A stretch of DNA of 64,000 bases from Candidatus Manganitrophaceae bacterium. GTDB lineage: Bacteria > Nitrospirota > Nitrospiria > SBBL01 > Manganitrophaceae. Position 1 is the stretch's first letter, and every line of letters starts with the position of its first letter. The translations under genes and the position numbers were made by a program. Location: NCBI GenBank assembly GCA_016200325.1, contig JACQEZ010000007.1:1-64000 (forward strand), in the 5' to 3' direction. This document shows, piece by piece, positions 38,630-56,306 of this stretch. The notes beneath the pieces are model-generated. The model searched no databases. It was not told the DNA's origin and saw nothing but the letters and a program-made list of their open reading frames with translations.

Positions 38630-40726
38630 ATGGCTGAAACCGTTTCAGAACAGACCCCGGCCGGCGGGTGGCTCAAAAATGGCGACATCATTCTCAGCCT
38701 CGGAGTGGTCGGGGTGTTGATGCTGATGATCCTTCCGCTGCCGCGGATGCTCCTCGATCTCCTCCTCGCCTTTAATTTGAGCGTGGCGTTGATCATCCTC
38801 TTCGTGTCGATGTATACGCTCCGGCCGATGGAATTCTCGGCCTTTCCATCGATGCTTCTCCTCGTCACCCTCTTCCGGCTCTCCCTCAACATCGCCACGA
38901 CGCGGTTGATCCTTCTGCACGGCAATGAAGGGGCCGATGCGGCGGGAGAGGTGATCAAGACCTTCGGAAACTTCGTCGTCGGCGGCAACTACACCGTCGG
39001 ACTGGTCGTTTTTGCGATTCTCATCGTCATCAACTTTGTGGTGATCACCAAGGGCGCCGGCCGGATCGCCGAGGTGGCCGCGCGTTTTATGTTGGACGCG
39101 ATGCCCGGAAAGCAGATGAGCATCGACGCCGATCTCAATGCCGGGTTGATCGACGAAAAAGAGGCGCGCCGCCGGCGCAAAGCGGTCTCTCAAGAAGCCG
39201 ATTTCTACGGGGCGATGGACGGCGCCAGCAAGTTCGTCCGCGGCGATGCGGTCGCCGCGATCTTGATCGTCCTCGTCAACATCATCGGCGGGTTGATCAT
39301 CGGCGTTCTACAGCAGGGGATGGGGGTGATGGCGGCGGCGCAAAATTATACCTTGCTGACGGTCGGCGAGGGGCTGGTGGCGCAGATTCCGGCGCTGATC
39401 ATCTCGACCTCGGCCGGTATCGTCGTCAGCCGCGCCGCGGCCGATGCGAATTTGGGAACGGAGGTCACCCGTCAAATTCTGGTTCATCCCCGCGCGATCA
39501 TGGGGGCGGCCTCCATTATTTTCCTCTTCGGCTTGATGCCGGGATTGCCCCACATCGCGTTTCTTCTCCTCGCCTCAGCGATCGGATTTATGGGCTATAC
39601 CGCTCAGAAGTCGAAAGAGGCTGCGGCCGCCGCCGAGATCAAGGAGACGGCCCCCTCGGCGGCCCCCCCGGCGGCGGAAAAGCAGGATTGGATCGTGCCG
39701 CTCGACCTGATGGAGCTCAATGTCGGCTACGGTCTGATCCCCCTTGTTGACGAGGCGCAGGGAGGAGAACTCTTAAAGCGGATCTCCGCCATTCGAAAGC
39801 AGCTGGCGTTGGAACTCGGCTTTGTGATCCCGCCCATTCACATCCGGGATAATCTCCAGATCAAGCCGAATGAATATATCATCATGATCAAAGGCATCGA
39901 GGTCGCCCGGGGCGATCTCCTCCCCGATCACTATCTCGCGATGAATCCGACCGGGACCGATCGAGGGATCTCCGGCATCCCGACCAAGGAGCCCTGTTTC
40001 GGTCTCCCGGCCCTTTGGGTCTCGGAGAAGGAGAAAGAGCGTGCCCAAGTGGCCGGCTATACCGTGGTCGACGCTCCTTCGGTCATCGCCACCCATCTGA
40101 CCGAAATCCTGCGAAATCACGCGCACGAGCTCTTGGGACGGCAGGAGGTTCAGCAGCTGATCGATCGTTTCGGAAAAGAGGCGCCGAAGGTGGTCGAAGA
40201 GTTGATTCCCAACCTCCTTCCGCTCGGCGGGGTGGTCAAGGTGCTCTGCAACCTGCTCCGGGAGCGGGTACCGATCCGGGATCTGCGGACGATCATGGAA
40301 ACGCTGGCCGACACCGCTCCGACGACGAAAGATGCCGATCTGCTGACCGAATCGGTCCGTCAGGCGCTCGGCCGGACGATCACGCGGCAGTATCAAGCGG
40401 CCGATCGGACCCTTCCGGTCATCAGCATCGATCCGACGCTCGACCAGCGGATTGCAACCTCGATTCAGCAGAGCGGCCAGAACTATATTTTGACGCTCGA
40501 TCCGATGTTGGCGCAGAAGATCCTGCTACGGATTCGGCAGGCGGTGGAGCAGGTTTCGATGAAGGGGACCGCCCCGGTGCTCCTTTGCTCGCCGATGATC
40601 CGGCCGCATCTCCGAAAGCTGGTGGAGCGGTTTATCCCCAACCTGGTGGTTCTCTCCTCGAGCGAGGTGGTCTCGCCGGTCAAGATCCAATCGATAGAGA
40701 CGGTGAAGGTGAGCGATGCAGATTAG
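38630..40726 (+). CDS. flhA: Flagellar export gate protein FlhA
   Basis: The 698-residue product has eight N-terminal transmembrane segments. The FHIPEP-family signature includes RFMLDAMPGKQMSIDADLNAGLIDEKEARRRRK (about 145-180), and the large cytoplasmic domain (about 340-698) carries substrate-docking subdomains. It forms the nonameric ring receiving chaperone-substrate complexes. The C-terminus overlaps flhF by 11 bases. Confidence 0.98.
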   Translation: MAETVSEQTPAGGWLKNGDIILSLGVVGVLMLMILPLPRMLLDLLLAFNLSVALIILFVSMYTLRPMEFSAFPSMLLLVTLFRLSLNIATTRLILLHGNEGADAAGEVIKTFGNFVVGGNYTVGLVVFAILIVINFVVITKGAGRIAEVAARFMLDAMPGKQMSIDADLNAGLIDEKEARRRRKAVSQEADFYGAMDGASKFVRGDAVAAILIVLVNIIGGLIIGVLQQGMGVMAAAQNYTLLTVGEGLVAQIPALIISTSAGIVVSRAAADANLGTEVTRQILVHPRAIMGAASIIFLFGLMPGLPHIAFLLLASAIGFMGYTAQKSKEAAAAAEIKETAPSAAPPAAEKQDWIVPLDLMELNVGYGLIPLVDEAQGGELLKRISAIRKQLALELGFVIPPIHIRDNLQIKPNEYIIMIKGIEVARGDLLPDHYLAMNPTGTDRGISGIPTKEPCFGLPALWVSEKEKERAQVAGYTVVDAPSVIATHLTEILRNHAHELLGRQEVQQLIDRFGKEAPKVVEELIPNLLPLGGVVKVLCNLLRERVPIRDLRTIMETLADTAPTTKDADLLTESVRQALGRTITRQYQAADRTLPVISIDPTLDQRIATSIQQSGQNYILTLDPMLAQKILLRIRQAVEQVSMKGTAPVLLCSPMIRPHLRKLVERFIPNLVVLSSSEVVSPVKIQSIETVKVSDAD

Positions 40727-41951
40727 AAAATATGAAGTATTTGAGATCTCAGAGGCGCTGAAGGTGATTAAGAAAGAGCTGGGGCCCGACGCGGTGATTT
40801 TGTCGACGCGGGAGATTCGGAAAGGGGGCTTCGGTCTCTTTAACCGGCCCCTCATCGAAGTGACCGCCGCGGTCGATCCCCCGAGTCCGATGGAGAAAGC
40901 ATCCCGTGACGAAGCGGCAAAAACGTACCGACGCGACGGCTCGGAGGAAAAATCGGAGGTGTTCGACGAATTATTGGAGGAAGCGGACCAGGCGACTCCG
41001 TCCGCTCCAGAGATCGGCTCGGTATTGGAAGAGCTTCGGACGTTGAGGGAATCGGTCGAGGCGCTCCGCGCCGCCCCGCTGCAGAACGGCGGCTGGTCCC
41101 AAGTCCAAGAGGCCTGTCGAGAGATGAAGGAGATGATGAAAGGGCTGACCCTTGCCGCGCAGCCGAGGGAGGCCGATCTCCCGCCGACGCTGGCGGCCCT
41201 CCTTCAGCGTCTCATTTTGAGAGGGGTCGACCCGGCGATTGCAACCGATCTCCTTCAGATGATCAAGCGGAAACTGGGCCCCGACGATCTCTGGAAGGAA
41301 GATTTTGTCGAAAATTATCTCAAGGAAATGATTAAGTCGATGGTCCAGGCCTCGGTGGCGATGGAGCGCCCAAAGGAGGGGGGGAAGGTGGTTGCACTAA
41401 TCGGACCGACCGGAGTCGGCAAGACCACCACCCTCGCAAAGCTGGCGGCCCATCAATTCCGGAATAAGGGGAAGGTGACCCTGGCGACGCTCGACACCTA
41501 CCGGGTCGGCGCGGTCGAGCAGCTGAAGATTTATGCCAAAATCATCGGCGCCCCGGTGATCGTTTCGGAGAGCCAATTGCGTGAAGGGGTGGCCCGCCGG
41601 CAGGAGGGAGAGCTGATTCTCATCGACACCGCCGGGCGAAGCCATCTGAACCGCGCGCAGGTGGAGGAGCTCCACCTCCTCTCCCGGATCGGCGCGCCGA
41701 TTGAGACCCATCTGGTCCTCTCCTCCACGACCGGGGAGCGCGACCTGGAAGAGATGATCGATCAATTTTCCGCCGTTCCGATCAACTATTTCCTCTTTAC
41801 CAAGACAGATGAAACCCGAAATCATGGATCTCTCCTCACCGCGATGAGAAAAAAAGGGAAGCCGCTCTCGTATCTGACGACCGGCCAGCGCGTTCCGGAG
41901 GATATTGAGATCGCAACCCCCAAACGCATCGCCGACCTGGTGCTGAATTGA
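40716..41951 (+). CDS. flhF: Flagellar placement SRP-type GTPase FlhF
   Basis: The 411-residue product has an N-terminal B domain (MQIRKYEVFEISEALKVIKKELGPDAVILSTREI, characteristic of FlhF), an acidic linker and an NG GTPase domain with P-loop GPTGVGKTTTLAKLA (about 228-242), DTYRVGAVEQLKIYA, DTAGR and TKTDE. FlhF sets flagellar position and number. Its start lies within flhA, and flhG follows after 11 bases. Confidence 0.97.
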   Translation: MQIRKYEVFEISEALKVIKKELGPDAVILSTREIRKGGFGLFNRPLIEVTAAVDPPSPMEKASRDEAAKTYRRDGSEEKSEVFDELLEEADQATPSAPEIGSVLEELRTLRESVEALRAAPLQNGGWSQVQEACREMKEMMKGLTLAAQPREADLPPTLAALLQRLILRGVDPAIATDLLQMIKRKLGPDDLWKEDFVENYLKEMIKSMVQASVAMERPKEGGKVVALIGPTGVGKTTTLAKLAAHQFRNKGKVTLATLDTYRVGAVEQLKIYAKIIGAPVIVSESQLREGVARRQEGELILIDTAGRSHLNRAQVEELHLLSRIGAPIETHLVLSSTTGERDLEEMIDQFSAVPINYFLFTKTDETRNHGSLLTAMRKKGKPLSYLTTGQRVPEDIEIATPKRIADLVLN

Positions 41952-54359: not shown

Positions 54360-55052
54360 ATGCAGGTTGAAGCGAAAGCAATGGGAAGGCGGTCCGGGTT
54401 TATCGGCGTCGGGATGTTCCTCTCGCTGCTCGGGTGCAGCACCCCTGCCAACCAGGTGAAGCCTTCGGAGATCTCCCCCGCGTATCTTCACCCCGCAGAT
54501 CTCCATCAGTCGGACGGCTCTCTCTGGGCCGCAGATCAGTCGAGGACCTTCTTTTTTCAGGACACCAAGGCGAGCCACATCGGAGATATCGTGACAGTCC
54601 ATATTGTCGAGAATGCCAAGGGAACAAAAGATGCGGCGACCAAATCGGGCCGCACGTCGACGCTCGCCGCGAGCACCAGCGCCCTTTTAGGATTGCCGAC
54701 CAGCCGGGTGCAACGGCTTCAGGCCGATGCCAATTTCGCCGATACCTTTGATGGGTCGGGGTCGACGAGCCGGAGCGGTGCGCTGACGGCCGATCTCACC
54801 GCGGTCGTGACCGCTGTTTTTCCAAACGGGAACATGGCAATTGAGGGGAAGCGGGAGGTATTGATTAACAGTGAAAAAGAGTTGATCTCTCTATCGGGGG
54901 TGATCCGCCCCGACGATATCGGCGCCAAGAATACAATCCTTTCAACGTTCATTTCCGAGGCGAAGATCGAATATAGCGGGAGCGGTGTGTTGAACGATAA
55001 ACAGCGGCCGGGATGGCTGATGCGGATTCTCGATTGGATCTGGCCTTTCTGA
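54360..55052 (+). CDS. flgH: Flagellar L-ring lipoprotein FlgH
   Basis: The 230-residue product has a lipobox LLGC in FIGVGMFLSLLGCSTP. FlgH motifs are SLWAADQSRTFFFQDTKASHIGDIVTVHIVENAKGTKDA and MAIEGKREVLINSEKELISLSGVIRPDDIGAKNTILSTFISEAKIEYSGSGVLNDKQRPGWLMRILDWIWPF. It forms the outer-membrane ring and so supports a Gram-negative envelope. ATG 54360 follows GAGAGGTGGCGGGA; GTG 54351 is in frame. Confidence 0.96.
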   Translation: MQVEAKAMGRRSGFIGVGMFLSLLGCSTPANQVKPSEISPAYLHPADLHQSDGSLWAADQSRTFFFQDTKASHIGDIVTVHIVENAKGTKDAATKSGRTSTLAASTSALLGLPTSRVQRLQADANFADTFDGSGSTSRSGALTADLTAVVTAVFPNGNMAIEGKREVLINSEKELISLSGVIRPDDIGAKNTILSTFISEAKIEYSGSGVLNDKQRPGWLMRILDWIWPF

Positions 55053-55195
55053 TTGCGAATTGCGGATTTCGGACTGCCGATTGAAGAGCAACTCCATTGA
55101 AGGGAATTGCAATTTTAGTTTTGTGAGACGGTTTCTATGAAAAGGTGGTGGCAGATTAATTTGAATCCGCAATCCGAAATCCGCAATCCGCAATG
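55051..55195. repeat. 31-bp inverted repeat (IRNPQSE-type dispersed repeat) across flgH-flgI junction
   Basis: The left copy (about 55051-55082) is the reverse complement of the right copy (55164-55194), with 28 of 31 bases matching. The right copy reads AATCCGCAATCCGAAATCC and so on. It lies inside flgI and encodes NPQSEIRNPQ, residues 10-19 of FlgI. Such translated ...SEIRNPQ... repeats are familiar from many bacterial genomes. The arms could pair around the flgI start region. Confidence 0.8.
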
Positions 55196-56306
55196 GGTCC
55201 GCGCCGGTTGGGGATTCCTCATCATGGTCTGCCTCCTTTTCGCTGTTCCGTTTCGGGCGGAGGCGGTTCGGATTAAAGACATTGCCAACGTGGAGGGGGT
55301 TCGGGAGAATTCGATCATCGGATATGGACTCGTCATCGGGTTGAATGGAACCGGCGATAAAACGGGGACCACTTTTACCGTTCAAACCCTTTCGAGCATG
55401 TTGAACAAGATGGGGATTGTCGTCGATCCGACCGCGGTAAAGGTAAAAAATGTCGCGGCGGTGATCGTGACCGCCAAGCTCCCCCCTTTCGTCAAGTCGG
55501 GAAGCCGAATCGATGTGGTGGTCTCTTCGTTGGGAGATGCCACGAGCCTGCAGGGGGGAACCCTCCTCTTGACGCCGTTGAAGGGGCCGGATCAGCAGGT
55601 CTATGCGGTGGCCCAGGGACCGATCTCGATCGGCGGTTTTATCGGCGGCAAAGAAGGGGACAGCGTGCAAAAGAATCATCCGACGGCCGGCCGGATTGCC
55701 GAAGGGGCGCAGGTCGAAAAAGAGGTCGGGTTTGCCTTCGTGAACAAAGCGCAGCTCAACATCCTTTTGCGTCAGCAAGATTTCACAACCGCCCTTCGGG
55801 TCTCCAAAGCGATCAACATGCAATTGGGAATGGAGTCGGCCGCGACCGCCGTCGATTCGGGAACGGTGGCCCTCCAGGTGCCCGAGCTTTATAAAGGACG
55901 GCTGGTGGAACTGCTCGCGGCGATCGAAGGTGTAGAAGTAACGGTCGATCTGCCGGCGAGGGTGGTGGTCAACGAGCGGACCGGAACGATCGTCATGGGC
56001 GATCAGGTGAGAATTTCCGATGTCGCCGTCTCTCACGGCAATTTGACCATCCGTGTGAAGACCGACTTCCAGGTCTCGCAGCCCCCCCCGTTTGCTCCGG
56101 AGGGATCTAAAACGGTGGTGGTTCCGCAGCAAAAAACGGAGGTGAAGGAAGAGGATGCAAAAATTTTGGTGTTGAAGGGGGGAACGACGATCGGAGAGGT
56201 GGTCCGAGGTCTGAACGCCATTGGCGTGACGCCGCGCGACTTAATCGCCATTCTCCAAGCCATTAAGGCAGCAGGGGCCCTTCAAGCCGAATTGGAGATT
56301 TTATAA
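55137..56306 (+). CDS. flgI: Flagellar P-ring protein FlgI
   Basis: The 389-residue product contains the FlgI core VRIKDIANVEGVRENSIIGYGLVIGLNGTGDKT and ends VVRGLNAIGVTPRDLIAILQAIKAAGALQAELEIL. The signal peptide core is WGFLIMVCLLFAVPFRAEA. The 22 residues before it include NPQSEIRNPQ, encoded by a dispersed repeat, so the N-terminus is unusually long. No good ribosome-binding site precedes ATG 55137. An ATG at 55224 would leave a very short, uncharged signal. FlgI forms the periplasmic ring around the rod. Confidence 0.95.
   Translation: MKRWWQINLNPQSEIRNPQWVRAGWGFLIMVCLLFAVPFRAEAVRIKDIANVEGVRENSIIGYGLVIGLNGTGDKTGTTFTVQTLSSMLNKMGIVVDPTAVKVKNVAAVIVTAKLPPFVKSGSRIDVVVSSLGDATSLQGGTLLLTPLKGPDQQVYAVAQGPISIGGFIGGKEGDSVQKNHPTAGRIAEGAQVEKEVGFAFVNKAQLNILLRQQDFTTALRVSKAINMQLGMESAATAVDSGTVALQVPELYKGRLVELLAAIEGVEVTVDLPARVVVNERTGTIVMGDQVRISDVAVSHGNLTIRVKTDFQVSQPPPFAPEGSKTVVVPQQKTEVKEEDAKILVLKGGTTIGEVVRGLNAIGVTPRDLIAILQAIKAAGALQAELEIL

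Follow-up and report, generated by a model that had tools for sequence, protein, structure and literature searches.

The closest precedent that we found is the intervening sequence (IVS) of the Coxiella burnetii 23S rRNA gene, as set out in sections of PMC4990558. This IVS contains an S23 ORF, is bounded by a 28-bp terminal stem (inverted repeat), has tandem heptamers near the S23 start, and was called a selfish element. The same sections cite earlier ideas of the IVS as mobile and describe the function of S23 proteins as not known. In the open-access PMC literature, in which MacGregor 2015 and Hicks 2016 came nearest, we found neither a general account of S23 genes flanked by heptamer arms nor a described source of dispersed heptamer repeats.

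We analyzed a window of 64,000 nucleotides on contig C7 of a 4.2-Mb genome of a Candidatus Manganitrophaceae bacterium, in which a hairpin with heptamer arms lies between the flagellar genes flgH and flgI. This hairpin is probably a gene-less, non-autonomous copy in a dispersed family, within a wider class of heptamer-armed S23 elements.

A heptamer hairpin in the flgH-flgI gap

An earlier note on this DNA had described an inverted repeat across the flgH-flgI gap, and we recovered it as two 34-nt arms (55052-55085 and 55161-55194) with 88% complementarity at a separation of 75 nt; the features of the locus are listed in Table 1. The left arm begins at the final position of the flgH stop codon. 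Tandem Repeats Finder (TRF) identified both arms as period-7 arrays, each with ~4.5 copies of the degenerate heptamer ANTKCGG. The loop is the longest of 58 element loops compared. The right arm codes NPQSEIRNPQ, part of the FlgI n-region, in agreement with the residues previously assigned to it.

Table 1. Coordinates of the features discussed, numbered from the first base of the window
Feature	Coordinates	Strand	Remarks
flhF-like gene	40716..41951	+	SRP54-type GTPase; named by context; without arm in this genome
flgH	54360..55052	+	ATG 54360, in-frame GTG 54351 too; Pfam FlgH
Hairpin left arm	55052..55083	+	~4.5 degenerate heptamers; TRF array 55051-55083
Hairpin loop	55084..55163	.	80 nt; contains flgI ATG
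Hairpin right arm, inverted	55164..55194	-	AATCCGCAATCCGAAATCCGCAATCCGCAAT; codes FlgI residues 10-19; TRF period-7 array
flgI	55137..56306	+	ATG within loop; in-frame TTG 55161 alternative; Pfam FlgI

Copy number and architecture of the dispersed family

Dispersal of the repeat, also proposed in the earlier note, was confirmed by a copy count. A 24-nt consensus with up to three mismatches gave 31 matches in this genome, representing at least 19 separate places, and the reversed pattern gave none. A looser pattern, with which a single place may yield several matches, gave the following numbers of matches and reversed-control matches: 58/0 in this genome and, in its congeners, 18/2 (G005), 15/2 (G002), 55/2 (G004), 31/6 (G001) and 164/67 (G003). 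The high reversed control of G003 (67 vs. 164) indicates that this genome contains other repeats. Further dispersed repeats were seen in G003 at L185 3402-3499, 4001-4085 and 4586-4718. A strict three-unit array was present at least once in 105 of 395 Nitrospirota genomes, some of them only at control level, and 23 genomes had at least 10 matches. Among 45 genomes reached via FlgI loci, 15 had the strict array; one of these was G003 again, and several had 1-3 matches.

Arm pairs no more than 150 bp apart were convergent in 58 cases and divergent in none, and 38 arms were alone; these numbers refer to 149 loci chosen as a subset of the matches and are not genome totals. The order within the element is fixed: GCGG-arm, loop, CCGC-arm. 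Arms of 31-33 nt were found on the left in 40 and on the right in 29 of the 58 elements, the others being mostly shorter. Loops have a median length of 28 nt (range 8-80), with an A-rich beginning and a T-rich end, and family members are ~40 to 150 bases long. At 63 of the 92 element ends with sufficient flank, an open frame of at least 90 codons ended between -60 and +12 nt from the arm (38 within -8 to +2); the stop nearest the arm was chosen in each case, which favors small distances.

The loop of one G003 hairpin (L184 4569-4645) contains GTCATCCTGAGCGGAGCGAAGGA, presumably another widely dispersed repeat. In this genome, a GCTGA-type hairpin appeared by eye to sit inside the loop of a hairpin with ATTGCGG arms (L011, C19:395334). 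Rfam searches gave only matches far under gathering scores, several of them linking loci of G003 and G004 to miRNA families, and we rejected these as chance. A blastn search of phage and plasmid sequences with one G003 element as the query gave no match, and neither the DNA string nor the peptide of the repeat was matched in open-access PMC literature. In the Ca. Manganitrophaceae genome paper (PMC9040806), the sections that touch on repeats, palindromes or intergenic regions contain one unrelated mention.

Occupied and empty sites in congeners

Ten sites (A-J) that are occupied in G003 were compared, and at none of them was the element present in all congeners. G002, G004 and G005 all lacked it at sites A, B, C, F, G and H, and both this genome and G003 were occupied at sites A, E, H, I and J. 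At site H, the neighboring genes share the four bases ATGA in G002, G004 and G005; in the occupied genomes the hairpin separates them, with 79 nt (this genome) or 81 nt (G003) from the stop to the start. Heptamer hairpin elements insert, as these empty sites show. No consistent target-site duplication was seen by eye at the ten compared sites. Site H is compatible with a GTGA/ATGA duplication, although both codons are required by the genes.

Several of the sites hold other sequences. A different hairpin, GCAGGCTGCTGAAAAA, was present at site D in this genome and G005, and another, GTAGGGGCGG, occupied the gap of site H in G001. GGGTGTA heptamers were found at site I in G004 and G005, and other hairpins at site J in G005. 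In this genome, sites F and G carry other, unrelated inserts, and the right flank of site C aligned poorly. Hairpin families GCAGGCTGCTGAAAAA and GAGACGTCCCGGCGGGACGTCTC (L265, L267, L305, L266) were also observed in gaps that contain heptamer hairpins in sister species.

S23 genes between inverted heptamer arms

In G004, the arms of one member of the hairpin family are separated by 372 bp and enclose an ORF with matches to PF05635 (73 bits; cut-off 33.8) and, at 95 bits, to TIGR02436 ("four helix bundle protein"); the solved relative is 2rld. This S23 element takes up 450 bp, vs. 8 bp at the orthologous place in G005. A GGGTGTA S23 copy in G005 takes up 460 bp, vs. 34 bp in G004; at the GGGGCCN S23 site of G002 and G004, G005 has an S23-less hairpin of 99 bp built from yet another repeat.

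Eleven S23 copies in the genus scored over the cut-off. ATTGCGG arms flank one of them, the G004 copy just described (partly by eye); in eight more, both flanks carry arms built from a different repeat: GCTGANN, GGGGCCN (two copies), GGGGGTA/GGGTGTA, GAGTGAG, a AGGCACAG octamer and ATTTTCC (two copies). L349 has arms on one side only and L356 has none, as is the case for two below-cut-off S23 genes of the genus (L359, L360). The heptamer varies between S23 copies. The same heptamer also occurs with and without S23 inside one genome: ATTGCGG in G004, GGGTGTA in G005 and ATTTTCC in G002 (partly by eye).

A general link between S23 and heptamers was found in 81 S23 loci, comprising the 11 genus loci over the curated cut-off, 30 search loci and 40 loci near the top of the match list; the choice of the last 40 makes the set lean to high HMM scores. 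Period 7 (score ≥12) was found in 71/160 near flanks vs. 6/162 flanks at 300-500 bp (Fisher 2e-19). Period 8 (30/160) and period 9 (5/160) were also present in near flanks, and both were 0/162 at 300-500 bp. The two flanks were mutually inverted at 65/81 loci near the gene vs. 2/81 far from it, with the 95th percentile of mismatched pairs as threshold (Fisher 7e-27); both Fisher values assume independent flanks. At a period-7 cut-off of 10, both signals were present at 46 loci, period 7 only at 8, inversion only at 19 and neither at 8, and far flanks reached that score at 7/81 loci. Right at the edge of the S23 domain, 71/162 windows had period 7; the count was 0/162 at a distance of 200 bp and 2-6/162 farther out.

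Plasmid S23 loci gave a similar picture. Twelve were taken from 15 among the matches listed (26 plasmid records have S23); 8 were from Cyanobacteriota, 2 from Chloroflexota, 1 from Bacteroidota and 1 from Spirochaetota. All 12 loci, and all 24/24 flanks, had 7 as the best period among 5-11, in a comparison of near flanks only with no far control, and the inverted score was at least 14 in 11/12 pairs. On the plasmids L432, L433 and L434, S23 genes are flanked by DUF1156 / Swt1-HEPN or DISARM DrmD / BREX PglX annotations.

PF05635 was found in 76/148 Nitrospirota genomes. Among 16 listed genomes of the 23 array-rich ones (at least 10 matches), S23 was present in 15 and absent in this genome; the other 7 may lack S23. 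The profile search gave no PF05635 match in this genome despite its many hairpins, and G003, which has the most pattern matches, has a single S23 with a different heptamer. S23 therefore may not be the mover, or may act across families, or may have been lost.

Dispersal, fixed arm order, empty sites, one S23-bearing member and the general S23-heptamer link are observations. The hairpins are most likely S23-less members of a broad S23-element class, of which 23S rRNA IVSs are a special case, and S23 may drive their movement. We tentatively advance a wider proposal: an unrecognized broad class of mobile elements would consist of a lone S23 (23S-rRNA-IVP four-helix-bundle) gene between inverted, copy-specific arrays of 7-9 nt repeats. 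Gene-less hairpins would be its non-autonomous members, 23S rRNA IVSs special cases, and dispersed heptamers (ATTGCGG, GCTGANN, GGGTGTA and others) its remains; no known transposase would be needed, and the arms would be rewritten per element. The S23-element family may be the origin of many simple 7-base repeats in bacterial genomes.

The hairpins could instead be an ordinary MITE family moved by some transposase, with S23 genes as mere passengers that at times lie between the arms. They are short and dispersed, with terminal inverted repeats and empty sites; this genome has no S23 match; and in-frame fusion of MITEs with genes is reported in sections of a review (PMC10969869). However, S23 is linked to many different heptamers over the 81 loci, and the 12 plasmid loci extend this link to four further phyla; a passenger of one transposon family is not expected in new heptamers every time. 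No clear target-site duplication was seen either, and we consider such a MITE family unlikely.

The flgI site in relatives

The repeat had been interpreted as an invasion of flgI in this species. That interpretation was not borne out: a related array directly follows the flgH stop codon in all four congeners having flgI (G002, G003, G004, G005). G001 gave no flgI match. The array is AATGCGAAATGCGGGGTGCGGAATGCGGAGTG in G002, G004 and G005. The left arm of this genome aligned without gaps to the G002/G004 array at the same place, with 28/36 bases identical, and an odd GCGA unit is common to the left arm and the G002/G004/G005 array. The G003 array is related, with 26/36 bases matching the left arm. 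In G002, MRNAGCGMRSEDRKR precedes the hydrophobic stretch of FlgI, so that the start codon and charged n-region are array-derived. The FlgI N-terminus is the same in G005 and is MRSERNNK in G003. In G002, G003 and G005, the array contains the ATGs from which the FlgI signal peptide would keep a charged n-region. The flgI frame of G004 (L037) is broken in the array stretch, close to homopolymer runs, probably by an assembly error.

This species differs from its congeners in having a second arm and a shifted start: its left arm contains no ATG, and the flgI start lies within the loop. No second arm was recognized at the flgI site of the congeners. In the flgI tree, G002, G004 and G005 grouped together and the position of this genome relative to G003 was left unresolved; the tree therefore does not decide between gain of the second arm here and loss elsewhere. 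We compared flgI starts at 28 loci, and no relative combined the same N-terminal extension with absence of the repeat, a combination that the earlier note had named as contrary evidence. In G007, from another genus of the order, flgI (L042) starts in the usual way and is without an array. Other short-period arrays were found beside flgI in three more genomes of the phylum: an octamer downstream of flgI (L038), and a nonamer (L044) and a heptamer (L050) in the flgH-flgI gap. In a control set, period 7 was found in 4/56 FlgI flanks, three of which are the arrays at flgI discussed here.

Translation start of flgI

Fold prediction supported the suggestion that a hairpin can form around the flgI start. 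The RNA fold across the start had z = -2.94 vs. shuffles, and 27.7 base pairs were expected between the arms, per 32 left-arm bases. The lack of an obvious ribosome-binding site likewise held for ATG 55137, at which the best anti-SD duplex was -2.7 kcal/mol vs. -8.2 for flgG, -6.2 for flgH, -6.4 for flgJ and -8.2 for flgM; the value for flgA was also weak (-3.8 kcal/mol). The in-frame TTG 55161 was better than ATG 55137 (-6.0 kcal/mol, spacing 12). For candidate start 55224 the duplex was -5.5 kcal/mol, and FlgI would be left with MVCLLFAVPFRAEA, without a charged n-region. The flgI ATG lies 84 nt from the flgH stop in this genome, whereas in G002 the TAA directly adjoins the first ATG; judged by this spacing, coupling of flgI to flgH, which had been suggested, appears less likely here than in G002. 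The hairpin may itself affect flgI translation.

The stable predicted fold, the weak ribosome-binding site at the ATG, and the retention of the array in all four flgI-bearing congeners are points in favor of a functional RNA or translational-control hairpin of flgI. However, arm covariation was not seen across the family, no Rfam match came near its gathering score, no second arm was recognized in congeners, and the same hairpin lies in many unrelated gaps. Arms of the same element also matched no better than arms of different elements (47/58 elements; 4931/5000 permutations equal or better), which speaks against selection for exact pairing. We therefore regard a dedicated RNA function at flgI as improbable.

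Conservation of the heptamer motif

Substitutions between orthologous arms were frequent at heptamer positions 2, 4 and 6 (54/160, 33/153 and 25/140) vs. positions 1, 3, 5 and 7 (11/170, 15/161, 11/140 and 6/142), in pairwise, non-independent counts. Because changes fall mainly at these three positions and arm covariation is lacking, the repeat motif, not exact arm pairing, is what is conserved.

Maintenance of motif shape would also suit protein-binding or regulatory heptamers resembling the TAACTGA repeats of Beggiatoaceae. That explanation seems quite improbable, however: the elements occur in many gene contexts, including the interior of the flhF-like gene, their arms are inverted rather than direct, and at the ten compared sites they occur in some species but not in others. 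Tandem-repeat slippage, in which heptamer arrays would grow in situ within gaps and inverted pairing would be secondary, fits the gain and loss of units between orthologous arms (in G004, the left arm at K lacks one unit and that at E lacks three) but is scarcely credible in view of 58 convergent vs. 0 divergent pairs, entire hairpins missing at orthologous sites, and a single consensus across genomes.

Arms read as protein

The flhF-like gene carries an arm in G002, G004 and G005 (L176 2786-2817, L180 8142-8179 and L173 3676-3708), with no net frame change in the alignment. The arm peptide in G002, for which the full ORF was checked, is FPIPQSAIRDPQ. In this genome, a GspJ-like pseudopilin (N_methyl, T2SSJ) has a leader derived from an arm, with FRIPHSEIRNRH before GFTLLE and a putative start codon. 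In the flgA-flgH gap of G002 (L178 1200-1330), an ATTTTCC-type hairpin codes the FlgH n-region MENRKRQMTNGKWKMENRK.

Under the S23-element interpretation, the hairpin would have landed in the flgH-flgI gap, probably in the genus ancestor or earlier, at a place where short gaps and signal-peptide n-regions would tolerate it. The congeners would have taken the flgI start codon from the array; in this species the loop would have supplied it, and the right arm would be translated as part of FlgI. If the general S23-heptamer link is true, it provides a testable role for both S23 and the dispersed heptamers, the element having short tandem-repeat arms and S23 as its sole gene. Recurring N-terminal peptides such as IRNPQSA would then be element remains, and signal-peptide n-regions and start codons could come from mobile DNA.

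Comparison with known systems

PF05635 reportedly resembles Avd of diversity-generating retroelements, according to parts of PMC10053308. The TAACTGA repeats of Beggiatoaceae, as described in sections of PMC4679880, share with the present elements heptamer arrays in gaps, many of them near start codons. They differ in sequence and in being direct rather than inverted, and those sections do not mention a link with S23; with another heptamer and inverted arms, the hairpins are not TAACTGA repeats.

REP sequences, which are palindromes of 20-40 bp with a GTAG or CGTC end, are placed mainly downstream of genes (sections of PMC3733652), as are the hairpins. The arms here are longer, and GTAG was near 5/116 and CGTC near 1/116 element ends, so identity with REP was rejected. 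Rickettsia palindromic elements (RPE) are read in frame inside proteins (sections of PMC10969869), and in-frame insertion was likewise found in the flhF-like gene of congeners and in the FlgI n-region; the heptamer architecture differs, a distinction from RPE made by description, not by sequence.

The hairpin family shares with MITEs its small size, terminal inverted repeats, absence of a transposase or other gene inside, dispersal and the possibility of in-frame fusion. It differs in that the arms are 7-periodic internally, no clear target-site duplication was seen, and the gene-bearing relative, the only such family member seen (G004), carries S23.

Compared with the 23S rRNA IVS, the elements described here lie between or inside protein genes, have a heptamer that changes from copy to copy, and include hairpins without S23. 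The flgI hairpin has terminal inverted repeats but is not in a 23S rRNA gene and has no S23 ORF in the copy. S23-class elements and the 23S rRNA IVS, as the latter is described in the sections of PMC4990558 concerned, both have terminal inverted repeats around S23 and tandem heptamers.
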